From positions 124,001-188,000 of the forward strand of contig NZ_FNHL01000003.1 in assembly GCF_900103715.1 (NCBI RefSeq): DNA of 64,000 nucleotides, read 5' to 3'. This document shows positions 42,287-57,364 of the stretch, in pieces. The DNA comes from Halogranum gelatinilyticum (lineage in GTDB: Archaea; Halobacteriota; Halobacteria; Halobacteriales; Haloferacaceae). Under the pieces are notes generated by a model. It did not search any database. It saw only the letters and a program-made list of their open reading frames with translations, and had not been told where the DNA came from. The translations under genes were made by a program, and so were the position numbers. How positions within the stretch are numbered: position 1 is the stretch's first letter; every line of letters begins with the position of its first letter.

Positions 42287-42640
42287 GTGACTCACAGGTG
42301 GCTCTCGCTGTCGGAAACGCCGTTCGACAGGGACGAGTTCGTCGCGCTCTGGATTCTCGCGACGACCACGTACGGCGTCGGCGACACGGTGACCACCATC
42401 GCACTCATCTACTTCGTCCCGGCCATCTCCGAGGGCAACGCCGTCGTCTCGGCCGCCGTGGACGCCTTCGGACAGGCCGGTCTCGTCGGCCTGAAACTGA
42501 CCGCCTTCTTCGTCTGTCTCGTCGTCAGCCTCGACGCCGCTCACGACGGCAGTAGACGCTGGTACTACCTGCCACCCGTCGTACTGACGCTCCTCGGGGC
42601 GTTCGTGACGGTCTACAACGTCCGGCTGCTGTTGGGCTGA
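42287..42640 (+). CDS. Small membrane protein, paralogue of the one at 52155
   Basis: 117 aa, GTG start that corresponds exactly to the ATG of the paralogue. A TATA-like CATTATG lies about 30 nt upstream. Four helices: about 17-45 (LATTTYGVGDTVTTIALIYFV), 50-68, 70-88 and 93-115. The first two helices carry the longest identical blocks. About three quarters of residues are identical to the product of 52155-52508. I recognise no named family. It flanks the SipW-type locus on the left as its twin lies inside on the right. Confidence 0.8.
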   Translation: MTHRWLSLSETPFDRDEFVALWILATTTYGVGDTVTTIALIYFVPAISEGNAVVSAAVDAFGQAGLVGLKLTAFFVCLVVSLDAAHDGSRRWYYLPPVVLTLLGAFVTVYNVRLLLG

Positions 42641-42747
42641 GCCGACGTCGCTCCCTTCTCCATGGATTGAATAAGAGAGTAGAGCGGTGCACCTGGAACA
42701 GGATAAAAGGAAACGTGAATTCTACAGGAGCCGAGCAGCCGATGCCG

Positions 42748-43341
42748 TTAGCCGCTATTCGGTTCCGGTGTCGCCGTCGGTTCTGGCGTGGCCGTCGGTT
42801 CGGGCGTCGCCGTTGCCTCTGGCGTTGCCGTCGACTCTGGTGTCGTGGTCGACTCCGGCGTGGCCTTCGGTTCTGGCGTAGCCGTCGCCTCAGGCGTCGT
42901 GGTCGTCGGTTCCGGGGTCGCCGTCGTCTCGGGCGTCGTCGTCGATTCTGGTGTCGTGGTGGTTGATTCCGGCGTCGTCGTCGCCTCTGGCGTTGCTGTC
43001 GACTCTGGCGTCGCCGTCGCCTCAGGCGTCGTGGTCGTTGGTTCCGGCGTCGCCGTCGACTCGGACGGAGACGACTCGTTCTTCGCGTCCTGAGTCGGCT
43101 CGCCGTCGGAGTCTGTCGGCCCGTCGGGTGACTCGTCCGCCGAACTCGGCGCGGGACCACCCGCCGACGAGGCCGCCAGTCCGCTGGCAGTCGACGGGGC
43201 GTCGTTGCCCGCGACGGTCAACGAGACCTCGGCCGTCTCCACGTCGAAGAGCGCGGCGGCGGTGAACCCCCCCGATAGCGTCGTGAAGAACACGAGACCG
43301 ACCAGTGCCAGCGACGACAGTCGCCGGTCAGGCGTCCGCAT
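42748..43341 (-). CDS. Exported SipW-type protein with Thr/Pro/Glu repeat stalk
   Basis: 197 aa. A hydrophobic signal (LSSLALVGLVFFTTLSGGFTAAALF) leads into DVETAEVSLTVAGNDAP, the SipW/TasA-type cleavage-and-strand pattern; unlike its relatives it lacks a clean twin-arginine start (DRRLSSL). From about residue 85 it is a low-complexity stalk of five- and six-residue units (TPEAT, TPEST, TPEPT), typical of O-glycosylated cell-surface spacers, ending NSG. The start overlaps the signal peptidase stop by 14 bp and has GGAGGAGG upstream, so it is translationally coupled and probably that peptidase's substrate. Confidence 0.78.
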   Translation of the reverse strand: MRTPDRRLSSLALVGLVFFTTLSGGFTAAALFDVETAEVSLTVAGNDAPSTASGLAASSAGGPAPSSADESPDGPTDSDGEPTQDAKNESSPSESTATPEPTTTTPEATATPESTATPEATTTPESTTTTPESTTTPETTATPEPTTTTPEATATPEPKATPESTTTPESTATPEATATPEPTATPEPTATPEPNSG

Positions 43342-44365
43342 CGTCCTCCTCCCAGAAGTCCTCGGTGTCGGCGACGTGCGCGACGTCCGCAGACTCGGCT
43401 GGGTCGGTCCCGCCGTCGGTGAGACCCTGGCCGCCCCCCGACGGCTCGGGTGGGGTCTCTCTCGTCGACGACGTCGGCTCGGTACTCCCGGCCGGCCCGG
43501 CCGCGTAGTAGAGTCCACAGAGCAGGAGTGTCGACGCGCCGGTCCCGGCGACGACGGCGACGGACCAGCCCTCGGTCAGCTGGGTCGCGACCCAGACGCT
43601 GTACGCGGTAAAGGCCGCGAGCGCGACGATGGCGAGCCGGATGTCCGTCCGCGAGATGCTGTATCCCGAGGCGACTTCGTCCGCTTCGTCGGAGACGGTC
43701 GAGGGAGCACTCGGTGCCGCCACCGGGTCGGCGGCCGTGTCGTCCGCGTCGGACGCGACAGCGAGCGTGACGTCGGTCTGCGCAGTGTGCTCGGTGTGTT
43801 CCGTGTGCTCGGCGACGGGCGTCTCCGCACCGTCGGCGTCACCGGCCGCCTCGTCACCGGACGACCGGCCGCGGACGCTCGTGGCGACGAGCCAGACCTC
43901 GTTCAGGACGAACAGCGCGATGGGTGCGACGACGAGCGCGGCGAAGCCCGCGTCGGTGTTGACGAACTGGACCGCGTAGCCGATGTACGGGATGGTCAGC
44001 ATCACGCGGCCGACGAGCCGGTCCGGCGTCACCGGCTGGGGGTCGGGGTCCTCGTTGTTGTCGCCTTTCGTCCAGTAGCGGACGCCGTCTGCGGTCTCTT
44101 CGACCTCGGTGACGCGGTGGGTCGTCGGCACCGACTCGCCGCCGCGCGTGAACGTGATGACGTCGCCGCTGACGACGGCCGCGGGTGCGACCGACTCGAC
44201 GACGACGGCGTCGCCGGGGTTGATGTTCGGCTGCATACTGCCCGTCAGGACGACGTAACTCTGCTCGCCGCCGACGACCTCTGGTACGCCGTAGACGACG
44301 AACGGGGAGACCGCGGCGACGAGGATGAGCAACCCGAGGATCCGTGCGAGACGTCCGGTGTTCAT
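43328..44365 (-). CDS. Signal peptidase I, ER/archaeal type (SipW-like), long C-terminus
   Basis: 345 aa. One helix (about 6-28), then the S26 motifs SYVVLTGSMQPNINPGD (catalytic S43), GDVITFTRG, TTHRVTEVE (H83 in place of the bacterial Lys) and YWTKGDNNEDPDP (D102). The catalytic domain ends with a helix about 150-165. The remaining half is an acidic, Ala/Thr-rich linker and two helices (about 252-290). The Ser-His-Asp set is typical of SipW and Sec11. It overlaps its neighbours on both sides (ATGA with the 85-aa frame, 14 bp with the stalk protein), so it lies inside an operon of secreted proteins. Confidence 0.92.
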   Translation of the reverse strand: MNTGRLARILGLLILVAAVSPFVVYGVPEVVGGEQSYVVLTGSMQPNINPGDAVVVESVAPAAVVSGDVITFTRGGESVPTTHRVTEVEETADGVRYWTKGDNNEDPDPQPVTPDRLVGRVMLTIPYIGYAVQFVNTDAGFAALVVAPIALFVLNEVWLVATSVRGRSSGDEAAGDADGAETPVAEHTEHTEHTAQTDVTLAVASDADDTAADPVAAPSAPSTVSDEADEVASGYSISRTDIRLAIVALAAFTAYSVWVATQLTEGWSVAVVAGTGASTLLLCGLYYAAGPAGSTEPTSSTRETPPEPSGGGQGLTDGGTDPAESADVAHVADTEDFWEEDDADA

Positions 44366-44619
44366 CGCGACACCTCGTCGCTCTCGCTGTTGTCTCGGAC
44401 GTCTCGGACATCTCGTTCGTCTTGTTCGTCTCGCTCGTCTCGGGAGGTTCGGGCGTTTCGGTGGCGACAGCCGTCGGTGTGATGGCGAGTCCGAGACAGA
44501 CCGGGGCGGTGCGGACAGCGACACAGTGTCGCCGAGTCGTCGTCCGCGGAGCGGTGTCTCGCGTGGCTGCGGCGGTCGCTCGGGTCGCGGTTCGGGGTCG
44601 GGGGAAGGGTTCGGGTCAT
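44362..44619 (-). CDS. Possible 85-aa Arg/Asp-rich protein in the signal peptidase operon
   Basis: ATG at 44619, one base after the stop of the SipW-type gene upstream; its TGA overlaps the signal peptidase ATG (ATGA). It contains TLCRCPHRPG and HHTDGCRH (three Cys and several His, possibly a metal site) and ends with a repeat of RDE/RDV units. Third codon positions are GC-rich though less than in neighbours. GAGGTG near its end acts as Shine-Dalgarno for the peptidase. It could be real or only a coupling frame; I recognise no family. Confidence 0.45.
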   Translation of the reverse strand: MTRTLPPTPNRDPSDRRSHARHRSADDDSATLCRCPHRPGLSRTRHHTDGCRHRNARTSRDERDEQDERDVRDVRDNSESDEVSR

Positions 44620-44620
44620 G

Positions 44621-45205
44621 TTACTCACACTGTGATGCTTGGAAGTGGACCGCGATTTCGGGTGACTCGCCCGCGTGGCCGTCGTCGGTGACGCGGAGCG
44701 CGAGCTCCAGCGCGACGACCTCGTCGGCTCGACAGCCGCTCCAGAGCGGGAGCGTGCCGACCTCGGCGAGGGCCGTCCAGTCGCTCGCGGCGGCGACCGT
44801 CGAGTCGCCGACCGACGACGGCTCGACGCGGAGGTCGATGTCGTCCGCAATCGGGCCTTTCGGTGCGTCGAGCGTCAGCGTCCCCGCGGCGGGGATGTCG
44901 GGGACGGCGAGGGCGACGGTCACGCTCCGAACGTCGCCAGTGCCCAGCTCACCCACGTCGAGCGCGAGCGGCCCGTCGGTGAACGACGACGGGAAGGAGC
45001 CGGACTGTTCGGGGACGGCCGTCCCGTCGGCAGAGAGCGCGAACCGGAGGTCGAACTGGCCGGAGGCGAGCGTCACTGGCAGACGTTCGCTGTCGAACAG
45101 CGTGCCGTACGCGCCAGCACCGCCGCCGAGACCGAGACAGCCGACCGCGCCGAGACCGGCGAGAAGCCGTCGGCGTGAAAGCCCGTCGGCGGAACCGTCA
45201 GTCAC
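44621..45205 (-). CDS. Secreted SipW/TasA-type protein 1
   Basis: 194 aa, GTG start. LSRRRLLAGLGAVG is a twin-arginine-like start followed by a Gly-rich hydrophobic stretch and GAYGTLFDSERLPVTLASGQFDL, the SipW-type signal plus first strand of the mature domain. A beta-rich mature part follows, ending in EIAVHFQASQCE. It is shorter than its relatives and lacks the NE-Q-x-D tail motif. GGAGG lies 6 nt before the GTG, and a 32-codon ATG frame precedes and overlaps it (GTGA). It is the first sizable gene of the operon that contains the signal peptidase. Confidence 0.78.
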   Translation of the reverse strand: MTDGSADGLSRRRLLAGLGAVGCLGLGGGAGAYGTLFDSERLPVTLASGQFDLRFALSADGTAVPEQSGSFPSSFTDGPLALDVGELGTGDVRSVTVALAVPDIPAAGTLTLDAPKGPIADDIDLRVEPSSVGDSTVAAASDWTALAEVGTLPLWSGCRADEVVALELALRVTDDGHAGESPEIAVHFQASQCE

Positions 45206-45300
45206 GGCTGTCCTCCGCCGTCGGGGCCGTCGCGTCCGCCGTGTGGGGCGTCGCTCGGCCCGTTGCGTCCACCGTTCGAAGCCACGCTCTCCGTCTCCAT
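45202..45300 (-). CDS. Possible 32-codon leader ORF before SipW-type protein 1 (GTGA overlap)
   Basis: ATG at 45300, stop 45204-45202 inside the GTGA of the next start. The peptide is Gly/Asp/Pro-rich. A TATA-like GATTAGTTATC lies 27-30 nt upstream of this ATG, which points to a leaderless transcript beginning at or next to the mini-frame rather than at the GTG. This is the clearest of the leader frames in the window. Confidence 0.45.
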   Translation of the reverse strand: METESVASNGGRNGPSDAPHGGRDGPDGGGQP

Positions 45301-45376
45301 CGGTTCACTCCACCACTGGAACGGGGATAACTAATCGCGCGTTCACAGCGCGCAATCGGCCAATGTATCGGCGCAA

Positions 45377-46138
45377 TCATGCGTTGTCCTCCGCCAGACA
45401 CTCCTCGGCGAAGACATCGAGACTGAACGTCGCACTGTCACCCTGTACGACGTTGCCCACGTCCTCGTCGATAGCCCAGGTCATCGTCAGCGGGATCGTC
45501 GTGCCCGCTTCGAGACACGGCTGGCCGTCGCCTGCGTCCGGCGCGAGCGCGACGCCGTCGGCGAGGGCGGCGGCAACTTCTGCGAGCGTCCCCTCCGCGT
45601 CGGGGGCGACGAGCGGTTCTGTGAGGTCGTGGATGCCGTTCTGCCCGCCGGCGGCGTCGACACCGAGGATACCGGTGTCGTATCGGAGGGATACGTCGAT
45701 GGACTCGGCGAGTTCGCCGTCGTCCGGCGTGTCGTCGCCGGCGGTCACTTCGGGTTCCGTCCGGCCGTTCTCGGCGGTGTCGGTCAGGTCGAGCGCGAGC
45801 GAGAGCCGAGCGGTCCTCGCGGTGTCGCCGACCAGTTCGGCGAGCACCGTGAGCGACCCGTGGTCCCCCGGCAGGGCATTGTCGAGCGCGACGACCGGGC
45901 CGTCGGTCGCGTCGCCGGTCGTCTCGGTCGTCTCGGCTCTGACAGCGCCGTTGTAGGTCTCGCGCCAGCCGACCCGGAGGTCGAGGCCGCCGTCGACCTG
46001 GTGGGTCTGCTGGCTCGTGAGTTCGACCGGCTCGAAGCCGAAGGTCGCTCGGCCGACGGCCGTCCCGCCGTACAAGAGGCTGAAGCCGCCGAGTCCGGCC
46101 AGGAGCTGTCGACGGGAGGGGGTGATGTCGTGGGTCAT
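45377..46138 (-). CDS. Secreted SipW/TasA-type protein 2
   Basis: 253 aa. PSRRQLLAGLGGFSLLYGG is twin-arginine-like, followed by the mature beta-domain (QVDGGLDLRVGWRE, DNALPGDHGSLTVLAEL, ALDLTDTAENGRTEPEV) and the shared tail TWAIDEDVGNVVQGDSATFSLDVF with EEC. The signal segment lacks the YF-x-D motif of the others. The start at 46138 is preceded by a T-arm-like RNA element. It is the last gene of the minus-strand series 50989-45377. Confidence 0.83.
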   Translation of the reverse strand: MTHDITPSRRQLLAGLGGFSLLYGGTAVGRATFGFEPVELTSQQTHQVDGGLDLRVGWRETYNGAVRAETTETTGDATDGPVVALDNALPGDHGSLTVLAELVGDTARTARLSLALDLTDTAENGRTEPEVTAGDDTPDDGELAESIDVSLRYDTGILGVDAAGGQNGIHDLTEPLVAPDAEGTLAEVAAALADGVALAPDAGDGQPCLEAGTTIPLTMTWAIDEDVGNVVQGDSATFSLDVFAEECLAEDNA

Positions 46139-46155
46139 GGCGTTCCCGTGTGGGA

Positions 46156-46218
46156 AACCTGCTGGCGGAGTCGAACCGCCGTGGCGACGGGAGCGTCGCC
46201 GGGACACCGGTGCAGGTC
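46156..46218 (-). other. tRNA T-arm/acceptor-like structure in gap, copy 1
   Basis: Minus-strand RNA order: acceptor-like 5' strand GACCUGC (46218-46212), a 7-bp hairpin GGCGACG/CGUCGCC with 4-nt loop (46200-46183), a T-arm-like hairpin GGCGG-UUCGACU-CCGCC (46180-46164), one A, then acceptor-like 3' strand GCAGGUU (46162-46156). The acceptor stem has six Watson-Crick pairs and one G-U. It lies 18 nt before the ATG at 46138. Confidence 0.55.
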
Positions 46219-46245
46219 GGATTCTGCTGGTCGTGCGGGCGGACG

Positions 46246-47604
46246 CTACCGAATCCCTCCGAATCCGCCGCTGCTTCCTCCACTGCCACTGTTGCCGTTG
46301 TTCCCACCGTTGCCGCTGTTTCCGCTGTTACCTCCATTGCTATCGTTGCCGCCGTTTCCACCATTTCCACCGCTTCCACCACTGCCTCCGTTGCCGCCGT
46401 TGCCGCTGTTCCCGCTGTTTCCACCATTGCTGCCACTGCCGCCGTCCCCGCTATCGTCGCTGTCTTCGGAATCGTCAGGGACGAAATCGCCGTTGTAGTT
46501 GTACTTCGCGTACTGGAACAGACCGCTGTTGCCGAGCGGCGCGTTCTCACTCTGGCCGTCAGCGACGGGGTCACACTCGTCGAAGACGACGGTGCCCGCG
46601 GTCGCTGGCGGCGAGAGGTCGACCGTCTGCCAGCACTGCGCGCCCTTGACGACGATGCGGTCGACCGGGTCGTCGCTCGCCCAGTCAAAGCCGATGGGTT
46701 CGTTCTCTTCCTTGTACTGGACGTTGCTGAACGCGACGTCACCCGACAGCTCCTCGTCGGTGCCGAAGGCGACGAAGCTGATGGCGGGGGCGTCGTGCTC
46801 CTCTGGCGGTTCGTCCGGCGGCTCCTCGGTGTCACCGCCGCCCGCGCAGGGCGACCGGGTGCCGTCGTTGTGGCGACACTGGAACGCCGAGAACGCGACG
46901 TCGACGCCGACGGTGTCGGTCTGGACCTCGTTACCCGTCTCGAAGGGGAGTTCCCAGTCGAGACAGAGCGCGGGGTTGACGACGCCGTCGGGAGCCTCGT
47001 AGTCCGACCCAGCGTAGCAGACCTGCTCGCCCGCGACGGCGGTCTCGTCGCCGGTGCCGTCGAGCGGCAGGCCGCCAGCGATAGCGTCGAGCACGTCCGC
47101 GAGCGACCCCGAGGCGATGGTCGCGAGGAGTTCGCCGTCCGCGTCGCAGTAGCCGAGCGTCGCCTGCAACGCGTCGGCGAGTTCGCCGGTCTCCGTGGAG
47201 TCGTCGGCGGCGTGGTTCAGCTCCGGTTCGGGCTGGCCGTTCTCGTCGTTCGCGGTGAGCCGGGTGCAGAGCCAGAGATACGCCGGGTTGCCCGTGAGGT
47301 CGAGGTCGAAGCGGAGCCGACCCGAGTCGCCCGGCTTCACGTCGGTCAGTTCGAGCGCGACCGCGGTGGACCCGTCGGCGACGCCCTCGACCACGACGGG
47401 CGTCTCGCCTGCTCCGTCGTAGACCGACCGGACGGCGACAGCGAGGTCCAGACGGCCGCCAACGAGCGTGTTGTCGGTGAACTCCTCGCGGTCCGAGAGG
47501 AGGGCAGTCGTGGCGAAGCCCGTCGCAGAGGAGGCCGTGCCGACGGTGGCCAGCCCGGCCAAGAGCCGTCGGCGCGAGAGTCCGAACGTGTCGTCTGTCT
47601 TCAT
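46246..47604 (-). CDS. Secreted SipW/TasA-type protein 3 with Gly/Asn/Ser-rich tail
   Basis: 452 aa. GLSRRRLLAGLATVG twin-arginine start, SipW-type segment TTALLSDREEFTDNTLVGG, then the TasA/camelysin-like domain with LTDVKPGDSGRLRFDLDLTGNPAYLW, LTANDENGQPEPE and the tail WELPFETGNEVQTDTVGVDVAF followed by QCRHNDGT. A second beta-rich domain (about 285-385) follows, then a low-complexity tail of Gly, Asn and Ser (about 385-452). The tail could form an extended or adhesive segment. Cys residues (Q-C-R, C-Y, C-D) might form disulfides. A T-arm-like element precedes the start. Confidence 0.85.
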   Translation of the reverse strand: MKTDDTFGLSRRRLLAGLATVGTASSATGFATTALLSDREEFTDNTLVGGRLDLAVAVRSVYDGAGETPVVVEGVADGSTAVALELTDVKPGDSGRLRFDLDLTGNPAYLWLCTRLTANDENGQPEPELNHAADDSTETGELADALQATLGYCDADGELLATIASGSLADVLDAIAGGLPLDGTGDETAVAGEQVCYAGSDYEAPDGVVNPALCLDWELPFETGNEVQTDTVGVDVAFSAFQCRHNDGTRSPCAGGGDTEEPPDEPPEEHDAPAISFVAFGTDEELSGDVAFSNVQYKEENEPIGFDWASDDPVDRIVVKGAQCWQTVDLSPPATAGTVVFDECDPVADGQSENAPLGNSGLFQYAKYNYNGDFVPDDSEDSDDSGDGGSGSNGGNSGNSGNGGNGGSGGSGGNGGNGGNDSNGGNSGNSGNGGNNGNSGSGGSSGGFGGIR

Positions 47605-47610
47605 GTGAGG

Positions 47611-47651: not shown

Positions 47652-47696
47652 GGGAATGCGAAGCGTCACCGCCGAGAGGTGAGAGGGACGAAGTGG

Positions 47697-49538
47697 TTAG
47701 TCGGCCTGCAGTGGGTTCTCGTTGGTCTCGTTGTGGCGACACTGGACCGCGCCGAACCGCAGCCCGAAGGTCAGCTCGTCGGTCTGTGCGAGGTTGAGCG
47801 TCTCGTAGTCGATGTCGCCGTAGCGCGCCGACACCTGGTCCGCGAAGGTCGCCTCGTCCTCGTCGTCCGGCGTCTGCCACGGCAGCGTCGAGAACTCGGC
47901 GGGCGTCTTCGGGAGATACCACTCGATACCGAGACAGTAGACGCCGGGGTCGACACAGGTCGCGTCGGCCGGGTCGGGAATCTCGAACGGCTCCGCCCGC
48001 GGGTCGAACGGCTGGCCGCCTTCGAGCAGGTCGATGAGACCGGCGAACGAGCCACGGTAGAAGGGGCTCTCCGCGCCGCCGGAGATGCTGGCAGCGACGT
48101 CGGTGTAAGCGGCCTCCAGGTTCGTCCCCGACACCGACAGCGACTCGACGTCGTAGAACGACGACCCGTCACTGCCAGTCGCAATCGTGTTGAGCAGCGC
48201 GTCCTCGGCGTTGGGACCGATGGCGATGGAACTGATCTGCTGACCGACGGTCTTGGCGTCGGTCGCCTCCTGAACCGCGTTGCCGGGGTCCTGGTCGTCG
48301 CCGCCGTCCGACAGCAGGACGATGGCTTGGTTGGCCGCCGGGTCGGACACGTTCGAGAGGAGGTCGCTGGCTGCACTGATGCCCGCGCTGATGAACGTCC
48401 CCGTCTTGCCCGCGCTGCCCTCGGAGGCGGCGATCTCCTCGCGGAGGTCGTCGAGCGTGTCGTTGACGAGCGCGGAGTCGTCGGAGTCGACGAGTGCCAC
48501 GTCGCGCACGGCATCTCGGGGGTTGCCGTTCAGGTCGATGTCCTGGCCCTCGGTCGTCCCGTAGAAGACGACACCGATGCGGACGTCGGCGTTCGGCAGC
48601 AAGGCGTTGAGCTGCGTGACGAACTCCTTCGTCGCCTCCTCGACGACGTCGATGCGGTAGAGGTCGTTGTCGTTGTCCTTGTCGACGCCGCGGAGGGCGT
48701 TGCCGTTCGCGGCCTGCGTGCCGTCGAAGTCGACTTCGCCGCCGCGGTTCGGGTAGAGCATCGACCCCGAGACGTCGATGGCGAGGACGATGTCGGCCTC
48801 GCTCGTCTCGGCGTCCAGGCGGTTGTTGCAGTTGGTGTCGTACCACGCCTCGACCCACATGAGGTCGTCGAGGTCGCCGTCGGCGGTGCCGTCTGAATCG
48901 TCGTAGGTGCCGTCCGCCGCGTCTTCCGGCTCGACGATGCCCTCGTCGCTGTCGACCTCGGCCATCCCCTCGAACCAGAGATACGCCGGGTTACCGCAGT
49001 GGTGGAGGCTGATGGTCATCTCGCCGGAGTCGCCGGGCTTGACGTCCGGAAGGTCGAACATCGTGGCCTCGAAGCCGTCGACGAGCCCAGCGAATCCCAG
49101 GTCGTCGCTGTCGATCGGCTCGTACATCCCGTCGCAGTCGACGCCCTTCGTCACGTCGCCCCAGTCGTTCTCCGAGTAGACCTGACCCTGTGCGCCAGGG
49201 TTGCCGGTCGTCTCGTATCGTAAGTCAGGAATCTGGCTGAGGACGTACATCGGCTCGTCGGTGTCGGGGACGCGATCGACCGACGCCGGCGAGTCGTAGT
49301 TGATACCGGTGTTGCCGTTCGACATCGAGTCGAAGGCGACCTCGGGACCGGTCGTGTACGTCGAGCGGTAGTCGAGTCGGAGGTTCAACTCGCCAGCCGT
49401 GAGGCTGTTGCCCTCGAAGGACTCGGTGTCGTTGAAGTAGGCGGTCGTGCCGAGACCCGCGCCGGCCGAGGCGACACCGACGGTGCCGAGGCCAGCCAGG
49501 AGGGTTCGTCGTGAGATGTTGAGTCTGTCGTCGGTCAT
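47697..49538 (-). CDS. Secreted SipW/TasA-type protein with inserted von Willebrand A domain
   Basis: 613 aa. ISRRTLLAGLGTVG twin-arginine start, SipW-type segment YFNDTESFEGNSLTAGELNL, and the TasA-like first half with DVKPGDSGEMTISLHHCGNPAYLW. A VWA domain (about 248-465) is inserted: IVLAIDVSGSM gives MIDAS D255-S257-S259, the Thr is in KTGTFISAG, and the Asp is in IVLLSDGGDD. The chain then returns to the TasA-like tail (CLGIEWYLPKTP... FGLRFGAVQCRHN). VWA domains bind ligands through a metal ion, so a tip or adhesin role is plausible. It is flanked by related genes in one series. Confidence 0.88.
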   Translation of the reverse strand: MTDDRLNISRRTLLAGLGTVGVASAGAGLGTTAYFNDTESFEGNSLTAGELNLRLDYRSTYTTGPEVAFDSMSNGNTGINYDSPASVDRVPDTDEPMYVLSQIPDLRYETTGNPGAQGQVYSENDWGDVTKGVDCDGMYEPIDSDDLGFAGLVDGFEATMFDLPDVKPGDSGEMTISLHHCGNPAYLWFEGMAEVDSDEGIVEPEDAADGTYDDSDGTADGDLDDLMWVEAWYDTNCNNRLDAETSEADIVLAIDVSGSMLYPNRGGEVDFDGTQAANGNALRGVDKDNDNDLYRIDVVEEATKEFVTQLNALLPNADVRIGVVFYGTTEGQDIDLNGNPRDAVRDVALVDSDDSALVNDTLDDLREEIAASEGSAGKTGTFISAGISAASDLLSNVSDPAANQAIVLLSDGGDDQDPGNAVQEATDAKTVGQQISSIAIGPNAEDALLNTIATGSDGSSFYDVESLSVSGTNLEAAYTDVAASISGGAESPFYRGSFAGLIDLLEGGQPFDPRAEPFEIPDPADATCVDPGVYCLGIEWYLPKTPAEFSTLPWQTPDDEDEATFADQVSARYGDIDYETLNLAQTDELTFGLRFGAVQCRHNETNENPLQAD

Positions 49539-49615: not shown

Positions 49616-50989
49616 CTACGGACTATACGTCGTGACGATGTAGTTACCGCTACCCGTGGAGTTGGTCCCCGGGTAGATCGGGTTCGTTGCTGGGTCGTCA
49701 GCGTTGATCACTGCGCGACTGTCAGGGTAATTGAACGCATCTACCTGAACGCGGTAGTTGTCGCCCGGGTTGGGCATTGCACTGTTGTCTACAGCGACCC
49801 ACAGGACGTTTCCAGAGTGACTCGCAAACAGGATTGGGTTCGACACGTCACTCGGGTTCTGGAACATCCCCGTCTGATCTTTCTCCCAGACTGGGTTTCC
49901 ACCGCTGGTGATGACTTCTGAGTATCCCGTGTCGGTTCCAGACGGGAGTTGACTGTGCCCCGGTTGCCAGATAACCTGCCAGTCAGCAGTCCCATCGTCG
50001 TCGCTGTCGACGGCGAGGATATTGTTCATGTAGTCAAAGCTGTCAGCAACGTCGGTGATCTTGAACAACGTCTGAGACGTCCCGTACGCGACGTCAAGCG
50101 TCAGGTGACCAGACTCATCAGCCGCGTAGTTACTGTCAGCGTCATACTGCCCCGAGACGAAACTGTCATCGACGAAGGGGTTCGCCGTTCCGTCGTTGTG
50201 CCGTGACTGCACGGCGTAGAAGGTCAGGTCGAACTCGACGGAGTCGGTCTGGACCTCGTTGCCGACCTCGGTCGGCAGTTCCCACGCAAACGCGAGACAC
50301 TTACCCGAGAAGTCCTGTTCGGGGGTGCCCGGGAACGGCTCTCGATCCGCCGTACTGGAGTCGTTGTCTAGTGGAATGCCAGCTTGAAGCGCTGCAAGCA
50401 CCTCGCGGAGGCTGCCCTCGAAGACGAGTTCCGCGTCACCCGCCACTGGGATCGACTCGTTCTCGCTCGGACGGCCCTGGTCGCCCGGGACGTAGCCGTC
50501 GTCGACGCAGTAGAGAACGGCTTCGATGGCGTCGGCGAGTTCGCCCTCGCCATCGATGGGCGAAGAGGACTCGGTGGTGTTGTTCGGGTCGGCGTCCGCT
50601 TCGGGTTCGTTGACGGTGTTCTCGTCGTTCGCGGTGAGTTCGCCACCCGCCCAGATGTAGCCGGGGTTGTCCACGAGCGAGAAGCAGAACGTCCCGTAGC
50701 TGTAGTCGCCGGGCTTCACGTCGGTCAGCTGCTGGCTGACCCCGTTCTCGCCGTTGATGACGACGGGTCCGAAGGTCTCGCCGCCGCCGTTGGCTTCTGC
50801 TTGGTACTCGTAGACCGTCGCCTGCACTGCGAGGTCGAGCGAGCCGGCGGTCAGCGTGTTGTCGGTGAACGATTCGGTGTCGTTGAAGTACGCGGTCGTA
50901 CCGATTCCAGCACCCGCAGACGCGAGGCCGATGGTTCCGAGACCGGCCAGGACGTTGCGGCGCGAGAGGTTGAGTTTCTTGTCTGCCAT
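49616..50989 (-). CDS. Secreted SipW/TasA-type protein 4
   Basis: 457 aa. NLSRRNVLAGLGTIG twin-arginine start, SipW-type segment YFNDTESFTDNTLTAGSLDL, TasA-like domain with LTDVKPGDYSYGTFCFSL, NPGYIWAGGELTANDEN and the tail WELPTEVGNEVQTDSVEFDLTFYAVQSRHND. A C-terminal beta-rich domain (about 275-457) with Thr/Ser/Asn and Asp-rich strands follows. It heads the minus-strand series that continues with the VWA protein. Its promoter has a TATA-like CTAATACCG about 50-60 nt before the ATG, so a leader of about 30 nt is expected. GC is lower than in most of the window. Confidence 0.85.
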   Translation of the reverse strand: MADKKLNLSRRNVLAGLGTIGLASAGAGIGTTAYFNDTESFTDNTLTAGSLDLAVQATVYEYQAEANGGGETFGPVVINGENGVSQQLTDVKPGDYSYGTFCFSLVDNPGYIWAGGELTANDENTVNEPEADADPNNTTESSSPIDGEGELADAIEAVLYCVDDGYVPGDQGRPSENESIPVAGDAELVFEGSLREVLAALQAGIPLDNDSSTADREPFPGTPEQDFSGKCLAFAWELPTEVGNEVQTDSVEFDLTFYAVQSRHNDGTANPFVDDSFVSGQYDADSNYAADESGHLTLDVAYGTSQTLFKITDVADSFDYMNNILAVDSDDDGTADWQVIWQPGHSQLPSGTDTGYSEVITSGGNPVWEKDQTGMFQNPSDVSNPILFASHSGNVLWVAVDNSAMPNPGDNYRVQVDAFNYPDSRAVINADDPATNPIYPGTNSTGSGNYIVTTYSP

Positions 50990-51214: not shown

Positions 51215-51294
51215 AGTTGCTCGCACACGACTGTCGGCTGAAATACCCGTATTCGGCGGTTTGAGTGGTATAACCACGCAATCAGCGGATGTAT

Positions 51295-51310: not shown

Positions 51311-51380
51311 CAGTGGTGACTACGGCGCGACCCCATCGCCGCCAACTCGCGACGACGCGCGCCACAGGAGAGACCCACTC

Positions 51381-51911
51381 ATGCAGTTGTTCACCCAGTC
51401 CGGCCTGCTCGAAACCGAGATTCACGACATCCTGCGGAACGACCGCCGCCGCGCGGTGCTCAAGCATCTCAGACAGACGACCAGCGACGTTACCCTGCGC
51501 GACCTTGCGGAGGGTATCGCCGAGATCGAAACCGGCGAGTCGCCGCCGCCCAAGAACATCCGCGAGTCGGTCTACAACTCACTGCACCAGACGCACCTCC
51601 CGAAGCTGGACGAACGCGGCGTCATCAGCTACGACAAGAACCGCAAGACCATCGCGCTCGAAGAGCGCGCTCGCGCGGTCAACATCTACATGGAGGTCGT
51701 CACGAAGTACGGCATCACCTGGGCGGACTACTACCGAGGGATCGCGACGCTGTCGCTGCTGACGGTGCTGGCCGTCACCATCGGCGTCCCCGGTCTCTCC
51801 GAGGCGGGCACACTTCTCGTGACGAGCGGCTTCCTGCTCGTCGTCGCGCTCTCGACGCTCTACCAACTGTGGACCCAACGGTGGCTGTATCTGCGGCAGC
51901 TTGTCGGGTAA
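51381..51911 (+). CDS. Winged-helix regulator with two C-terminal membrane helices (DUF7344-like)
   Basis: 176 aa. The N-terminal half matches DUF7344-type haloarchaeal HTH proteins: EIHDILRNDRRRAVLKHLR, LRDLAEGIAEIETGE, SVYNSLHQTHLPKLDERGVISYD. Two hydrophobic helices follow (about 117-137 and 140-160), so DNA binding may be tethered to the membrane. CAGGAGAG lies 8-15 nt before the ATG. It lies between the two blocks of secreted proteins and shares a promoter motif with one of them, making it a candidate regulator of the locus. Confidence 0.85.
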   Translation: MQLFTQSGLLETEIHDILRNDRRRAVLKHLRQTTSDVTLRDLAEGIAEIETGESPPPKNIRESVYNSLHQTHLPKLDERGVISYDKNRKTIALEERARAVNIYMEVVTKYGITWADYYRGIATLSLLTVLAVTIGVPGLSEAGTLLVTSGFLLVVALSTLYQLWTQRWLYLRQLVG

Positions 51912-52154
51912 GTCTCGGTCAGTACCGGAGGTAATGGTCCACTTTGTCGGACGAACGGCACCTTTTCGCGGCGCGAATTCGCGCTTTTTCGTCAGTTTCG
52001 TGGCTCCGCTCAGCGACAGCCTTGGCATCCGGACCCTACCGAACCGAAGGCTCGCTGTTTCGACTGTACTGGCCAGTTCATCACCACAGGAACCCGGCTC
52101 GGATATGTCGGCAGAACATAAGCTATCATTGTTGTCGAGTTGTTCGAATAACGT

Positions 52155-52508
52155 ATGTCCGACACGTGGCTCTCTCTGAGAGAGACGCCTTTCGACGACG
52201 AGGAGTTCGTCACGCTGTGGGTTCTCGCGACGACCACGTACGGCGTCGGCGACATCGTGACGACCATCGCACTCATCTACTTCAGTCCGACCGTCACCGA
52301 GGGGAACGTCGTCGTCGCGACTGCCGTCGGCGCGTTTGGACAGGCAGGCCTCGTCGGACTGAAACTCGGTGCCTTCCTGATTTGTCTCGTGGTGAGCGTC
52401 GACGCCGCCCACGACGGGAGCAGGAGTTGGTACTACCTGCCACCGGTTGGGCTGACGCTTCTCGGGACAACCGTGACGGTATACAACATCCAGTTGATGC
52501 TGATGTGA
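52155..52508 (+). CDS. Small membrane protein, paralogue of the one at 42287
   Basis: 117 aa, four predicted helices. Same length as, and about three quarters identical to, the product of 42287-42640; LATTTYGVGD and TTIALIYF blocks are shared. ATG start with a TATA-like ACATAAGC about 27 nt upstream. Function unknown. The pair marks the left and inner right sides of the main secreted-protein block. Confidence 0.82.
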   Translation: MSDTWLSLRETPFDDEEFVTLWVLATTTYGVGDIVTTIALIYFSPTVTEGNVVVATAVGAFGQAGLVGLKLGAFLICLVVSVDAAHDGSRSWYYLPPVGLTLLGTTVTVYNIQLMLM

Positions 52509-52531
52509 GAGAGATATCGGCGGCGGAGTAA

Positions 52532-53707
52532 CTACGCTGTCCGCAGTCCGAGCGTCACGTCGAACGAGACCTGGTCGCTCTGTATCTCGTTCCCGACATC
52601 GGCCGGAAGTCGCCACTCGACGACGAGATGTGCGTGCTCGCCAGCCTCGAGGCCGACCGAACCCAACGGATCGCCCGTCGCAAGCGTCGACAGCGACACG
52701 TAGTTCGGCCCCGACAGGAGGCCGTTCCCGGAGCCAACGAGATACGACCGGCTTCCGTCGCCTCGGACGAGCGCGACTCTGAGTTCGAGTGCATCTGCGA
52801 GTTCGCCGACATCGGGACTCGCGTCGACCGCTCGCTCGGGTTCGATGAGGCCGTTCTCGGCGTTGACCAGGTTCGAGACGGTGATTGAGAGGGTCGCGTC
52901 GTCGGTGCCGTCGTTACTGACCGTCACGGCGGAGTCACCTGCCGATCCGGGGGCGGCACCCTCGACTGCCAACAGTGGTGTCTCGGCAGCACCGCCGACG
53001 TCGAGCGCGACCGCCGTTTCGGCCGTGTTCGTCACGTCGAACTCGTACGGTTCGACGACGGCGACGCGGTCGAGTTCATCGTCGCCATCGTAGAGGACGG
53101 CCGTGACCGAGACGTAGCCGCGACGGGTCCGAGTCGAAGCGTCGGCGGGATTGGCGAATCCGGGCGTCGTGGCTTCCGTGTAGAACAACCGCGTCGAATC
53201 GAACGCCTGACTGAGAGAGAGTGAACGGTCGTTACTCGCTTCGACGGTCGTACGCCTCCGTTCGGTCCACTCCTCGTTCGGTGTCCACGTGTGGGCGACG
53301 AGCGTGACTCGGTCGGCAGGGACATCCCACTCGACGGAGCCGCTGAGTTCCCCAGCCAGCGGGGGGACAATACCCTCGGCGTTGGTCACGTCGTCGGGGT
53401 CGGTGGGTGTGAAGGCGACGTCGAGGCAGCCGCAGTTTGGTTCGGTAGTGGTTGCTGCGTTCTCGGGTTGAGAGGCTTCGTCAGCATTGTTATGGCTCTG
53501 GCTTCGGGTTGGCGTTGATGTAGTTGATGATGGCTCTGGAGCGTGTGGTGTCTCATTGGCCCCAGTTGAAATGTGTTCTTGGCTAACAGGAACAGTGCCT
53601 CCGAACAACCCTACCCCAGTCGCTGCGATGGTTACGAAGAGTGCAACGCATATGATACTGATTTTTCGAATAGTAATCCAATTGTCTATTGATTCACTGT
53701 CAATCAT
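52532..53707 (-). CDS. Exported protein sharing the C-terminal tail motif of the SipW set
   Basis: 391 aa. One hydrophobic helix near the N-terminus (ISIICVALFVTIAATGVGLFGG, about 15-36) without twin Arg, then a Ser/Thr/Pro/Asn linker, a Cys pair (NCGCL), and beta-rich domains. The C-terminus WRLPADVGNEIQSDQVSFDVTL matches the shared tail of the TasA-type proteins, and ITVSNLVNAENGLIEPE resembles their 'ANDEN...EPE' block. It is the last gene of the three-gene minus series from 55212 with a 27-bp spacer; its own TATA-like TTTTATGA may add transcription. Confidence 0.75.
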   Translation of the reverse strand: MIDSESIDNWITIRKISIICVALFVTIAATGVGLFGGTVPVSQEHISTGANETPHAPEPSSTTSTPTRSQSHNNADEASQPENAATTTEPNCGCLDVAFTPTDPDDVTNAEGIVPPLAGELSGSVEWDVPADRVTLVAHTWTPNEEWTERRRTTVEASNDRSLSLSQAFDSTRLFYTEATTPGFANPADASTRTRRGYVSVTAVLYDGDDELDRVAVVEPYEFDVTNTAETAVALDVGGAAETPLLAVEGAAPGSAGDSAVTVSNDGTDDATLSITVSNLVNAENGLIEPERAVDASPDVGELADALELRVALVRGDGSRSYLVGSGNGLLSGPNYVSLSTLATGDPLGSVGLEAGEHAHLVVEWRLPADVGNEIQSDQVSFDVTLGLRTA

Positions 53708-53734
53708 AAAAGAACAAACGGGGTTTGAAGCGGT

Positions 53735-54478
53735 CTACTGGCCAGCCTGCTTCAGAGCGAACGTGATATCCGTCCGCAAGACGTCACCTTGATAGTCGTT
53801 TGGGATGTTCTCGTTCATCTTCAGATCGATGTTGAAGATAGTCTCCTCGGGCGAATCTGGGGGTGTATGCCCCAACTTCGGTGGATCGAATTCGTCTAAG
53901 ACCGCTTCGTTGGTATCTGGTGCAGCCAAATCTGCGAGGGACACAAAATCGTCTGGTGCAGTCGCATCCTTCTGGATGGTGTTTCCGTTGTGTGACTCGT
54001 CAGGTTGACTGTCGGTGACCAGATTCACAATATCTCCATCTGTTGTGGTGTAGGTGAGTGACTTCACCTCAATCCACTTCGCCATGTTACCTCCTGGATT
54101 AGTGTCTGCATCAGGACCACTGTCTCCAGGGGTATCTGGCGTTCCATCATTATTTTCGTCGATATCTCCGTCTCTGTCTTCGTAAGTGGTATTGCTGAAG
54201 TCGATTTCGAGGTGATCCAGTCTCCTCGTCCCCGTATTGAACAGGGCTAACTCGAGAGCGTAGGGATTCTCAGTGGTCTCACCCGGTTTCCAGTCGTACG
54301 AGTAGGAGGTACCGAACGTACCATCATGCATCCCTAAGTCAACTGTGCCGGCTTTGATTTGGTTATCTACAGAACTCTCTGAGTCAGTGAAGTACGCGAA
54401 CGTACCAGCACCAGTTCCTGCACTGACCGCGCCGGTCGCTCCAAGAGCACTCAACAATCGCCGACGCGTAAGTTCCAT
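53735..54478 (-). CDS. Secreted SipW/TasA-type protein 5
   Basis: 247 aa. LTRRRLLSALGATG twin-arginine start and the SipW-type segment GTFAYFTDSESSVDNQIKAGTVDLG. The mature part has the TasA-like first strands, an Asp/Asn-rich loop (about 108-130) and the tail DYQGDVLRTDITFALK. GC is clearly lower than in the housekeeping genes (many A/T third positions), which suggests different codon history. It follows secreted protein 6 by 17 bp and is co-transcribed. Confidence 0.85.
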   Translation of the reverse strand: MELTRRRLLSALGATGAVSAGTGAGTFAYFTDSESSVDNQIKAGTVDLGMHDGTFGTSYSYDWKPGETTENPYALELALFNTGTRRLDHLEIDFSNTTYEDRDGDIDENNDGTPDTPGDSGPDADTNPGGNMAKWIEVKSLTYTTTDGDIVNLVTDSQPDESHNGNTIQKDATAPDDFVSLADLAAPDTNEAVLDEFDPPKLGHTPPDSPEETIFNIDLKMNENIPNDYQGDVLRTDITFALKQAGQ

Positions 54479-54495
54479 TGACTGAACCCTCCTAT

Positions 54496-55212
54496 TTAGG
54501 CCTGAGTCGGGGAAGTGGTGTTGTCAGCAGACTGCGTGACGGTGAAGGCAACCTCAAAGTCAACCCCGTCTCCTTGTGCTTCGTTGCCAACGTCAGCAGC
54601 AAGTTTGACCTCTAAGTCGAGGGTGATTGTATCATCAGTATTTAAGGTAGCGTAACCCTTGACCGTTTCCATCGCGTCGTTGAGTTCGCTCAGGTCAACG
54701 TACGTTTCACCATCTCTAGCTTCTTCCGCGTCCGCATCATCGGTCGCATTAATATTCCCCTTGATCGGTGAAGATGGGGAATCATCCGCTAGGAGGTCGT
54801 CCGTTTCCTTAGTCCCCCCTCTGTCATGAGTAATCGATGCTGACACGACCTCTACCCTGTCTGCAAACTCATCTGCAGAAAGGTCACTACCATTGGTAGC
54901 TGCCTCTGATTCACTCGGCTCACTGAGAGCCGTATCGATGTCAAGACTGACACCATCGATACTCCCATCGTACGTCACAGAGACAGTCTTTGATTCGGCC
55001 GATCCACCTGGTTTCAGATTTTCAATATTTGCAGAGAAACCGCTCGGGCTATTAAGGTCAACCGTCCCTGCTGAAATATTGTTCCCCGAGCTCGTCTCGT
55101 TGTCACTGAAGTACGCCATCGTCCCTGCGCCCGTGGCTGCGCCAGCGGCGCCGATCGTTGCGAGTCCGCCCAGTACCTTGCGTCGCGTGAGTTCGACTCT
55201 CTTGTCAGACAT
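54496..55212 (-). CDS. Secreted SipW/TasA-type protein 6
   Basis: 238 aa. LTRRKVLGGLATIG twin-arginine start, SipW-type segment GTMAYFSDNETSSGNNISAGTVDL, a TasA-like domain (FSANIENLKPGGSAESKTVSV) and the tail AADVGNEAQGDGVDFEVAF. The size and order resemble TasA/CalY and archaeal bundling-pilus subunits, so this is a candidate main subunit. A leader of about 60 nt with GAGGT 11 nt before the ATG and a hairpin (GTGGG-N6-CCCAC) precedes it. Low GC as in the downstream gene. First gene of a three-gene operon with the shared 16-bp promoter motif. Confidence 0.86.
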   Translation of the reverse strand: MSDKRVELTRRKVLGGLATIGAAGAATGAGTMAYFSDNETSSGNNISAGTVDLNSPSGFSANIENLKPGGSAESKTVSVTYDGSIDGVSLDIDTALSEPSESEAATNGSDLSADEFADRVEVVSASITHDRGGTKETDDLLADDSPSSPIKGNINATDDADAEEARDGETYVDLSELNDAMETVKGYATLNTDDTITLDLEVKLAADVGNEAQGDGVDFEVAFTVTQSADNTTSPTQA

Positions 55213-55280
55213 TGGGTTGTCTTACCTCGTTCACGTGTGCATCCGTGGGGTCGCTCCCACCTAGCACGCAGTTGCTCCAA

Positions 55281-55296
55281 GGCACCATACCCCCTT
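55281..55296 (-). promoter_or_regulatory. Shared promoter motif, copy B
   Basis: On the minus strand AAGGGGGTATGGTGCC, directly after a TATA-like TATACAAAA, before the operon starting with secreted protein 6 (ATG 55212). Matches copy A at 51295-51310 in 14 of 16 bases, with both differences G-to-A transitions. Confidence 0.55.
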
Positions 55297-55337
55297 TTGT
55301 ATATGCCGATTGACGTGATGACAAACCCGGGCAGACC

Positions 55338-55399
55338 AGAGACAAACCGCGGTTGAACGTCTCTCGGAGGGAGTCAGAAACCCCTCTAATCACCGATTA
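55338..55399. promoter_or_regulatory. Dyads in the divergent gap before the second regulator
   Basis: AGAGAC...GTCTCT arms enclose the palindrome AACCGCGGTT (55338-55364), and TAATC-ACC-GATTA lies at 55387-55399. They sit between the promoters of the secreted protein 6 operon (left) and the regulator at 55487 (right; TATA-like region near 55455-55465). Candidate operators; no regulator is proven. Confidence 0.35.
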
Positions 55400-55486
55400 A
55401 AGACCGTCGAACGCTGTTTTCGGCCGACACCGTGGACCCTAAACAGCCAATTAGATAAGGTGTAATCTATCAAGAATTTCTATAGA

Positions 55487-56074
55487 ATGAGCATGAAGCA
55501 GGTCGGGGCGGATACCGAGACGCTTCCACGGGAGGTCGTCTTCGATATGCTGAGTAGTCAGCGACGACGACACACGCTGCACTACCTCTTACAGCACGAC
55601 CGACCCGTCGAACTTCGCGAGCTGTCGCGGCAGGTGGCAGCGTGGGAGAACGGCATCGAGCCCGTCGAGGTCACGTCCGACCAGCGGAAGAACGTCTACA
55701 CCGCGCTCAGGCAGGCACACCTCCCGCGGATGGACCGAGCGGGAATCGTCGACTTCGACCCGAACCGCGCGGAGATTGAACTCCGCGAGGAGGCAAGTGA
55801 TCTGCAGTTGTACCTCGAAGTCATTCCGGGGAACGACATCCCGTGGAGCGACTACTATCTCGGTCTGAGCGTCTTCTCGGGATTGCTCATTGGTGCCGCG
55901 GAGTTCGGTGTCTTCCCGTTCGGTGAAATTCAAGTCGTAGCCTGGACGGGACTCGTCGTCTTCCTTTTCTTCGCGTCTGCGGCCACGCACGCGTACATGA
56001 ACCGGCAGATGCGTCTGGGGCAAGAAGGCCCACCACCGGGCTACGAACAGGAACTCCAACAGGAGGACGAGTGA
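55487..56074 (+). CDS. Second winged-helix regulator with membrane helices (DUF7344-like)
   Basis: 195 aa. LPREVVFDMLSSQRRRHTLHYLL, ELRELSRQVAAWENG, VYTALRQAHLPRMDRAGIVDFD align with the regulator at 51381. Two helices follow (about 125-142 and 148-168) and then a charged tail (EQELQQEDE). The start may be ATG 55487 or ATG 55493. The ATG of the signal peptidase follows the stop by one base, so regulator, peptidase and exported protein form one operon. Confidence 0.85.
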   Translation: MSMKQVGADTETLPREVVFDMLSSQRRRHTLHYLLQHDRPVELRELSRQVAAWENGIEPVEVTSDQRKNVYTALRQAHLPRMDRAGIVDFDPNRAEIELREEASDLQLYLEVIPGNDIPWSDYYLGLSVFSGLLIGAAEFGVFPFGEIQVVAWTGLVVFLFFASAATHAYMNRQMRLGQEGPPPGYEQELQQEDE

Positions 56075-56075
56075 G

Positions 56076-56642
56076 ATGGACCGGTCGAAACTCCTCAACA
56101 CTGCTGGTCTGGTGCTCCTGGCCGTCCTCGTGGTGCCGTTCGTCGTCTTCGCCGTCCCGCAGGTCGTCGGTGCCGAACACAGTTTCGTCGTCGTCTCGTC
56201 CAGTATGGCTCCGGCGTTCCACGCCGGGTCTGCCGTCGTCGTCAACGACGTCGATCCGACGAGCGTCGACGAAGGGGACGTCATCACGTTCGAAGCACCG
56301 GGTGAGAACTTCGGTGGCGAGGGTGATGTCGACCGCGTGACCCACCGCGTCGTCGACGTTGTCGAGGAGGAAGACGGCCTCTACTTCCAGACCAAGGGTG
56401 ATGCCAACGAGGAGGTGGACCAACAACTCGTGCCAGCCGAGAACCTGATCGGTCGGGTGTTCTTCGCGATTCCGCTCATCGGCTGGGTACTCGACTTTGG
56501 CGGGTCGCAAACTGGACTGCTCGCTCTGGTCGTCGTCCCGTCGGCGCTTCTCGTCGTGGGTGAGGTCTGGGATCTGTATCAGGCGGCGACCACGGGTGAA
56601 GAGGACAAGAACCAGCCGTCGGTCACAGTCGAGGACGACTGA
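56076..56642 (+). CDS. Signal peptidase I, ER/archaeal type (SipW-like)
   Basis: 188 aa. N-terminal helix (about 8-28), SFVVVSSSMAPAFHAGS (catalytic S43), GDVITFEAPG, DRVTHRVVDV (H90) and FQTKGDANEEVD (D109), then a C-terminal helix (about 140-165) and a charged tail. Same Ser-His-Asp set as the peptidase at 43328 but without the long C-terminal extension. Probably processes SipW-type signals of the locus. Its TGA overlaps the ATG of the next gene (TGATG). Confidence 0.92.
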   Translation: MDRSKLLNTAGLVLLAVLVVPFVVFAVPQVVGAEHSFVVVSSSMAPAFHAGSAVVVNDVDPTSVDEGDVITFEAPGENFGGEGDVDRVTHRVVDVVEEEDGLYFQTKGDANEEVDQQLVPAENLIGRVFFAIPLIGWVLDFGGSQTGLLALVVVPSALLVVGEVWDLYQAATTGEEDKNQPSVTVEDD

Positions 56643-57364
56643 TGCGCGTGACGAGGCAACGACTAGCGGCATTGTACGCCGTTGTCGGTCTCGTGATGGC
56701 CAGTCTCGGTGGTGGCGTCTACACCCACGCGGCATTCAGCGACTCAGAAACGTCCGAGGTGACGATTCAGGCAGCGAGTGACTTCACCGTCACTGCTGGA
56801 AACTTCGACGCCGATCCGGGACATATCAGTCGTTCATCGAACGGTGGTACATTCCACGTCCACTTCGACATCGACGAACCAGGACAGGTGGACACGGACC
56901 GCTTCACACTCCGTATTGTCGAGACCGGAGGAACCCTCGACGCAACACGCGCATCCTGCAAAGAGAAGAGAGGGGGAGTGAACTGTCGCATCAAGTTCGA
57001 GCGCGACGAGTTGGTGACGCAGACTGACAGTGCTGGCACGTATGACCTCGTGCTTTCGGGGTGGTGGGACCGAGGGCGGGACTTCGAGTTGACCGGGACG
57101 GTCGAAATTACGCAGAGCGAAGAGCGGTGTACCAACACTGCCGGAAACACCGACTGCGACTCCACGACAGAACAGTCTACGGATAACGATGATCGTTGCA
57201 CGAGTGTGACAGGCAATTCCGGCTGTGAATCGACCCCGACGCAGTCCGCTGGGAACCAACAGACCTGCACGAGCAGTTCGACGAACTCGGGTTGTGAATC
57301 GACGACGACCCAAATCCTCGGGGGTTCGACCACGTTATCGATGGCAGCCTCTACTCGTGGATAA
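56642..57364 (+). CDS. Exported SipW-type protein with Cys-repeat tail
   Basis: 240 aa. TRQRLAALYAVVGLVMASLGGGVYTHAAFSDSETSEVTIQAAS is a SipW-type signal without twin Arg. A compact beta domain with two Cys (about 45-160) follows, and then a tail of 23-residue units, each with a C-x8-C pair (162-184, 185-207, 208-224). Ser, Thr and Asn are abundant between them. The start overlaps the signal peptidase stop, so it is likely a dedicated partner of that peptidase, as the stalk protein is for the other. Confidence 0.82.
   Translation: MRVTRQRLAALYAVVGLVMASLGGGVYTHAAFSDSETSEVTIQAASDFTVTAGNFDADPGHISRSSNGGTFHVHFDIDEPGQVDTDRFTLRIVETGGTLDATRASCKEKRGGVNCRIKFERDELVTQTDSAGTYDLVLSGWWDRGRDFELTGTVEITQSEERCTNTAGNTDCDSTTEQSTDNDDRCTSVTGNSGCESTPTQSAGNQQTCTSSSTNSGCESTTTQILGGSTTLSMAASTRG
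57125..57313 (+). repeat. 69-bp coding tandem repeat (Cys units)
   Basis: Two full 69-bp units and a partial third encode the 23-aa Cys repeats. DNA similarity is lower than protein similarity, so the repeats are old or under selection. Confidence 0.8.

Follow-up and report, generated by a model that had tools for sequence, protein, structure and literature searches.

Two putative TasA-like donor-strand fibre modules with twin-arginine-type subunit signals in the haloarchaeon Halogranum gelatinilyticum

What is built by a gene island of Halogranum gelatinilyticum that combines two signal peptidases of the endoplasmic reticulum (ER)/archaeal type, two DUF7344 helix-turn-helix proteins and eight products that carry a TasA-like domain? 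It comprises 16 genes, lettered A to P here (Table 1), at positions 42287-57364 of the window, a stretch of 64,000 nucleotides (contig NZ_FNHL01000003.1, positions 124,001 to 188,000). A sequence-only reading of the window had treated it as one system that makes a filament or surface matrix. All open reading frames (ORFs) named in that reading were present where it had placed them, but instead of a single system the island holds two modules, each a putative donor-strand fibre system of the TasA/camelysin kind. Type 1 consists of N, the divergent genes M, L and K, the convergent J, plus O and P; type 2 consists of I and the divergent genes H, G, F, E, D, C and B. Common to both are an ER-type signal peptidase of their own, a short partner encoded behind it (B or P), a divergent DUF7344 gene and one TasA-like protein without a cleavage junction (E in type 2, K in type 1). 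D-H, L and M have a twin-arginine translocation (Tat) signal in front of the TasA-like domain, in most of them with a SipW-type junction. Judged from its genes, the system is real, conserved and homologous to TasA/SipW; it probably forms multi-subunit donor-strand fibres whose subunits are exported by Tat and which are started and anchored by partners exported by the general secretory (Sec) pathway.

The homology to TasA was analysed with M, the probable major subunit. M matched the camelysin model PF12389 above cut-off over residues 11-229 and the TasA hidden Markov model (HMM) with 5.2e-8, but its 32.6 bits against the TasA equivalog NF046066 did not reach the cut-off of 450; therefore, M is a relative within the TasA family and not a TasA orthologue. 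Since M alone found no significant match in a single-sequence search of the PDB, the link to TasA rests on profiles: a profile of 42 relatives (A1) retrieved from the PDB the TasA crystal form 5of1 (9.3e-11), the TasA fibre 8aur (2.3e-10) and, in third place, the archaeal bundling protein AbpX (E 0.009). TasA was aligned over a stretch that begins with the mature F-x-D/donor-strand segment, includes AGTLDL and ends in the C-terminal NEVQGDSVEIDLTFELEQ, placed over NKYQGNSIKLQFSFEATQ of TasA; the match of the subunit profile thus reaches the C-terminal NEVQGD motif and QGDS strand. The AlphaFold2 model of M from the A1 alignment had a predicted local distance difference test (pLDDT) score of 73.7 and a predicted TM-score (pTM) of 0.67, and Foldseek placed 8aur first (E 9.5e-6, prob 1.00) as the sole PDB match below 1e-3. 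A TasA-like mature domain, which the sequence-only reading had predicted, was thus found by profile as well as by fold. G, H, L, M and P all scored above the 19-bit cut-off of TIGR04088, the SipW-type signal/cleavage domain, which was not reported for D, E, F, K or B. A plasmid collection searched for M gave no match.

Mature-domain alignments of the type-1 subunits, the type-2 subunits, E and K were found to be mutually homologous (hhalign probability 97.5-99.8%) when alignments without shared rows were compared and, therefore, type 2 is TasA-like by transitivity; a comparison of the alignments A2 and A1 was discarded as circular because they had rows in common. The von Willebrand-type (VWA) domain of G had been taken for an adhesin. 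The domain is there and sits inside a TasA-like subunit: F 74-152 matched G 151-233 and F 166-253 matched G 496-610 (BLAST), and since the two halves of F flank G 249-468, the VWA domain is an insertion within the TasA-like domain. Such an insertion would put an adhesin on the fibre and leave polymerisation of the subunit unchanged. F and H are 41.6% identical over 286 columns. In H, a further domain without Pfam match follows the TasA tail motif (residues ~273-457, window 49616-50170).

E and K deviate from this plan. E had been listed among the SipW/TasA-type exported proteins; its TasA-like domain and its Tat signal were confirmed, but a YTxYTYA-like sequence stands in place of the SipW junction, and E may be a terminal or membrane-retained subunit. 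K, read before as another exported protein with the same tail motif, indeed has the motif but is probably a membrane-anchored acceptor and not an exported subunit. It has a single transmembrane (TM) segment near the N-terminus without cleavage site or donor strand, and is made up of a helix (7-29), a disordered linker, a beta-sandwich (~90-230) and the TasA-like domain (~235-391); its model has a pLDDT of 79.9. A signal-anchor topology is suggested by K of Haloferax, which carries an extra N-terminal domain of ~150 residues ahead of the TM segment (L054:4844-6724 and further loci of this genus).

The two ER-type signal peptidases that had been noticed, C and O, were both detected by TIGR02228, with 105.2 and 105.6 bits (the latter in a genome scan) at a cut-off of 51.85, and both have the catalytic Ser and the THRV histidine; the His motif is present in 111 of 112 cluster peptidases. 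C reached 101.8 bits against the SipW equivalog NF046067, below the cut-off of 190, and is thus related to SipW but not SipW itself. That C or O is one of the known Sec11 enzymes of H. volcanii is not favoured, because the cluster peptidases score ~105-114 bits, while additional peptidase matches elsewhere in each genome are much weaker.

Directly behind these peptidases, as described before, lie the genes that start at 43341 (B) and at 56642 (P). Their products had been called exported proteins and look like TapA-style strand donors that carry tails. In 61 of ~118 cases, the peptidase gene and the one after it share 4 or 1 nucleotides; the product of the latter is built from a hydrophobic signal, a SipW-like junction (VALLSDSET, LAVFSDEVT or AAFSDSETS, for example), ~12 residues of alternating strand and a low-complexity tail, 89% of which is T, P, S, E, D, G, N, A or Q (79 genes). 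B residues 1-79 match P (BLAST); the B tail is rich in Thr, Pro, Ser and Glu, and P possibly has a small folded domain after the strand. TapA, whose N-terminus resembles the TasA donor strand, nucleates fibres in Bacillus, and only part of that N-terminus is needed (PMC9674648, PMC10151520); B and P resemble a TapA cut down to this essential part. Since P reached only 16 bits against the TapA model, the claim is that it would work like TapA, not that it belongs to the TapA family; B gave no match with the same model (TIGR04087).

We infer that the subunits would polymerise by N-terminal donor-strand exchange. An unlikely alternative is that they are monomeric surface proteins, associated with the membrane or the S-layer, in which the TasA-like domain does not polymerise and the peptidases are dedicated processing enzymes. 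These genes are not known to make a filament, many subunits (median 455 aa) are longer than the compact TasA and have additional domains, such as VWA, inserted or appended, and some copies are orphans, for example at G000:C2:879858 (L049), where a SipW-type subunit gene has no signal peptidase nearby. However, conservation between these proteins and TasA is highest in the donor-strand segment and the C-terminal strand, and the clusters hold several subunits plus dedicated strand-only partners. It is quite improbable that the appendage is a tubule or a covalently crosslinked thread, nearer to cannulae or the Sulfolobus thread than to TasA fibres: the cannula subunit CanA was among the Foldseek matches (9dlo, E 0.12) and threads are likewise donor-strand fibres (PMC11607397), but TasA was the sole significant match by sequence and by fold, and AbpX, from archaeal bundling pili, came third by sequence.

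The seven proteins for which SRR/TRR starts had been reported (at 45205, 46138, 47604, 49538, 50989, 54478 and 55212) all have RR in a [SLT]xRRxxL-type context. A YFxD segment had been ascribed to most of them; its strict form was found in four only (49538, 50989, 54478 and 55212), F (47604) having ALLSD, D (45205) TLFDS and E (46138) neither. RR was present in 397 of 403 haloarchaeal subunits, a count to be read with the caveat that the gene caller favours start codons that keep RR, in the context [ST]RRx(V/L)L (consensus [ST]RRxphiL), and the hydrophobic (h-) region was weakly hydrophobic, with a mean of 1.57 on the Kyte-Doolittle scale over 16 residues. In contrast, 21 homologous subunits from elsewhere in the phylum, encoded in operons with a peptidase and, for the most part, short partners, had Sec-type signals with an h-region of 2.45 (Mann-Whitney p 4.5e-14) and RR in a single case (MDRRILAAVLVIG), there without Tat context. 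The partners behind haloarchaeal peptidases (n = 79) had RR in 8 cases and an h-region of 2.48. From the RR context and the contrast in the h-region, the subunits and E look Tat-exported and the partners and K Sec-exported; for the subunits, we consider export by Tat probable. That RR merely gives the n-region its charge, with Sec as the export route as for Bacillus TasA, is highly improbable, even though signals of the Sec type are found in the relatives elsewhere in the phylum, as RR is invariant in 42/42, 23/23 and 31/31 aligned haloarchaeal sequences, the [ST]RRxphiL context and the weakly hydrophobic h-region are not shared by the Sec-type partners of the same operons, and most of the haloarchaeal secretome goes by Tat (PMC9263693). 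In the literature searched, we found no description of Tat use for a donor-strand fibre or of TasA-like subunits with Tat signals, and searches for SipW or TasA in haloarchaea gave nothing relevant.

In the proposed mechanism, the subunits would fold in the cytoplasm as self-complemented monomers and then cross the membrane by Tat. C or O would cut them just before the (Y/F/L)(F/L)xD segment, and cleavage would free the N-terminal strand to enter the next subunit as in TasA. The Sec-exported B or P would give the first strand in the manner of TapA, with its tail as a stalk, while K, permanently anchored in the membrane, would offer an acceptor groove and tether the fibre to the cell; E perhaps also anchors it. 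G would show its VWA adhesin on the type-2 fibre, and I and N would control their respective modules. More tentative, and a proposal we hold with slightly less than even confidence, is that the subunits were rerouted from Sec to Tat in haloarchaea, with K and the strand donor B/P, which would open the first subunit, going by Sec, and that assembly starts only where the two routes meet. If true, this would be an usher-free start of strand exchange and the first donor-strand fibre made of Tat substrates.

Several observations weigh against the fibre model. The first 40 residues of the M model are unordered and of low confidence, its TM-score to TasA is modest (0.38), and the type-2 profiles gave no direct TasA match in the PDB. 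The best fold matches of the K model were generic tandem beta-sandwiches, with the TasA fibre in 42nd place (1.6e-4), and P matched the TapA HMM TIGR04087 with 16.1 bits (E = 0.006), far below the cut-off of 80. The roles suggested for E and K are deduced from the absence of a motif, and filament, cleavage and export are predictions from genes and models.

The synteny which the sequence-only reading had asked for was strong across haloarchaea. In about 110 distinct signal-peptidase clusters, the two modules were met again with their gene order almost unchanged; the clusters come from many genera, among them Haloferax, Haloarcula, Halorubrum, Halobellus, Halorientalis and Natronorubrum; the sampled clusters include related species, so that the counts are not independent events. 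Type 1 is laid out as DUF7344, one to three divergent subunits, signal peptidase, partner P, K and, closing the module, a convergent gene of the tm117 family. Type 2 is laid out as DUF7344, a divergent run of subunits that usually includes one ~570-aa VWA carrier, E, a D-type subunit, signal peptidase and partner B. Exactly one E-type gene was found in 54 of 87 type-2 clusters and two in none, and a VWA subunit was found by motif in 53 of the 87. As searches with the profiles of K and E spread to every TasA-domain protein, the labels K and E in the gene strings mean only "TasA domain"; N-terminal features served to tell the classes apart. Of 116 haloarchaeal genomes, 53 had TIGR04088, and these represent 26 of the 46 genera sampled. 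In the H. gelatinilyticum genome, 11 of 12 TIGR04088 matches lie in three places, and all five TIGR02228 peptidases above cut-off lie within the same three. Around 50 haloarchaeal loci chosen by TIGR04088 alone, a signal peptidase was encoded within ~10 kb in 44 and a DUF7344 protein in 40, compared to ~0.04 and ~0.07 expected by chance per random 20 kb (7 and 13 copies in 3.77 Mb). The two helix-turn-helix proteins seen before, at 51381 and 55487, both belong to DUF7344; in 36 of the 50 loci, a TasA-domain gene lies immediately beside the DUF7344 gene in divergent orientation, and I and N are presumed regulators of the type-2 operon and the type-1 module, respectively.

The closest known arrangement is not identical. 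Like the tapA-sipW-tasA operon of Bacillus subtilis, the modules encode a TasA-like mature domain with a donor-strand start and a C-terminal NxxQGxS strand, a SipW-type peptidase and an adjoining small partner with overlapping or abutting ORFs (PMC10151520). Unlike in Bacillus, the subunit signals are of the twin-arginine type, there are several subunits per operon, one with an inserted VWA domain, a putative membrane-anchored acceptor (K) is present, the partner is mostly disordered past its first strand, and a DUF7344 gene takes the place of control by SinR. B and P share with TapA the place beside the signal peptidase, the SipW-type cleavage site and the donor-like first strand, but TapA has a complete V-set immunoglobulin domain (PMC10151520), whereas most B/P-type proteins have no folded domain. 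The archaeal bundling pili AbpA/AbpX are described as TasA-related donor-strand fibres as well (PMC9674648, PMC10903470); the sequence match to AbpX is weak, and Tat signals, VWA subunit and operon structure distinguish the haloarchaeal system. Operons elsewhere in the phylum (L196-L205) also have up to four TasA-like subunits, a peptidase and a short strand-type partner, but with Sec-type subunit signals, and no DUF7344, VWA or E-type gene was seen in them. Outside haloarchaea, Sec-type TasA-like pairs or triplets were also seen in Bacterium BMS3Abin01 (L193, with a peptidase) and in a euryarchaeotal metagenome-assembled genome (L153).

Bacillus biofilms have a scaffold of TasA-type fibres, of which relatives in Archaea are known from hyperthermophiles. 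What appears new here, as far as gene content can tell, are the Tat routing, the multi-subunit make-up, the VWA insertion, the anchored acceptor and the minimal strand donors. Since the haloarchaeal version is widespread, multi-component and present in Haloferax and Haloarcula, genera with established genetics, it becomes testable whether a donor-strand fibre can arise from already-folded exports and what would then trigger strand exchange. Likely roles are also given to DUF7344 and to proteins labelled SipW-dependent or hypothetical.

Table 1 Genes of the island, with positions in the window and the matches or features behind each assignment
Gene	Assignment	Position	Strand	Basis
A	117-aa membrane protein (tm117), duplicate of J	42287..42640	+	homologues adjoin K in type-1 modules
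B	putative type-2 strand-donor/stalk protein	42748..43341	-	Sec-type signal, ALFDVETAEVSLTVA strand, disordered tail
C	type-2 ER/archaeal-type signal peptidase, long C-terminal extension	43328..44365	-	TIGR02228 3e-30, catalytic motifs
D	Tat-signal TasA-like subunit	44621..45205	-	BLAST to L, G, H, F; conserved slot before signal peptidase
E	Tat-signal TasA-like protein without SipW-type site	45377..46138	-	alignment A3; hhalign to subunit sets
F	Tat-signal TasA-like subunit, Gly/Asn/Ser-rich C-terminal tail	46246..47604	-	homology to H
G	Tat-signal TasA-like subunit with inserted VWA domain (residues 249-468)	47697..49538	-	VWA 2.9e-9
H	Tat-signal TasA-like subunit, first gene of type-2 operon	49616..50989	-	TIGR04088 9.6e-7; alignment A2
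I	DUF7344 winged-helix protein, C-terminal hydrophobic segments, divergent from H	51381..51911	+	PF24035 1.4e-30
J	tm117 paralogue of A, convergent with K	52155..52508	+	
K	putative membrane-anchored TasA-like domain, without Tat motif or SipW site	52532..53707	-	
L	type-1 Tat-signal TasA-like subunit	53735..54478	-	PF12389 8e-9, TIGR04088 1.8e-8
M	type-1 Tat-signal TasA-like subunit	54496..55212	-	PF12389 1.5e-11, TasA HMM, A1 profile, Foldseek
N	DUF7344 protein, C-terminal hydrophobic segments, divergent from M	55487..56074	+	PF24035 5.4e-30
O	type-1 ER/archaeal-type signal peptidase	56076..56642	+	PF10502 2.2e-5; TIGR02228 4.9e-30 (genome scan)
P	putative type-1 strand-donor protein	56642..57364	+	hydrophobic signal, AAFSDSETSEVTIQA strand, Cys/Asn/Thr repeats; TIGR04088 2.8e-5

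The history of the island can be read in part from its borders. The whole type-2 module lies between the tm117 copies A and J, which are each other's closest relatives (75.9% amino acid identity), and the neighbours of the type-1 module are kept as in other genomes (e.g. locus L057), with the gene at 40378 and the enolase-family gene at 57502 on opposite sides. Type 2 would have been inserted beside type 1 with duplication of tm117, and O and P appear to have been relocated behind N in this genome. The G+C content at third codon positions (GC3) of M and L is 0.53 and 0.56 (window 53735-55212), whereas the genes around them have about 0.9 and the TasA-domain genes of type-1 loci elsewhere average 0.81; M and L may be recently replaced alleles.

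Elsewhere in the same genome, a second type-2 cluster (G000:C2:62001-81000, L047) has six G-related subunits, an E-type gene, a signal peptidase and a DUF7344 gene, and a small cluster (G000:C1:982001-996000, L048) has one subunit, two adjacent signal peptidases, a B-type partner and DUF7344. In many type-2 loci, a gene for a membrane protein of ~270-310 aa adjoins DUF7344 (e.g. L060:11049-11870, L047:16261-17097); the copies read contain the motif YTGENRCxPCT, and a second DUF7344 gene often follows.

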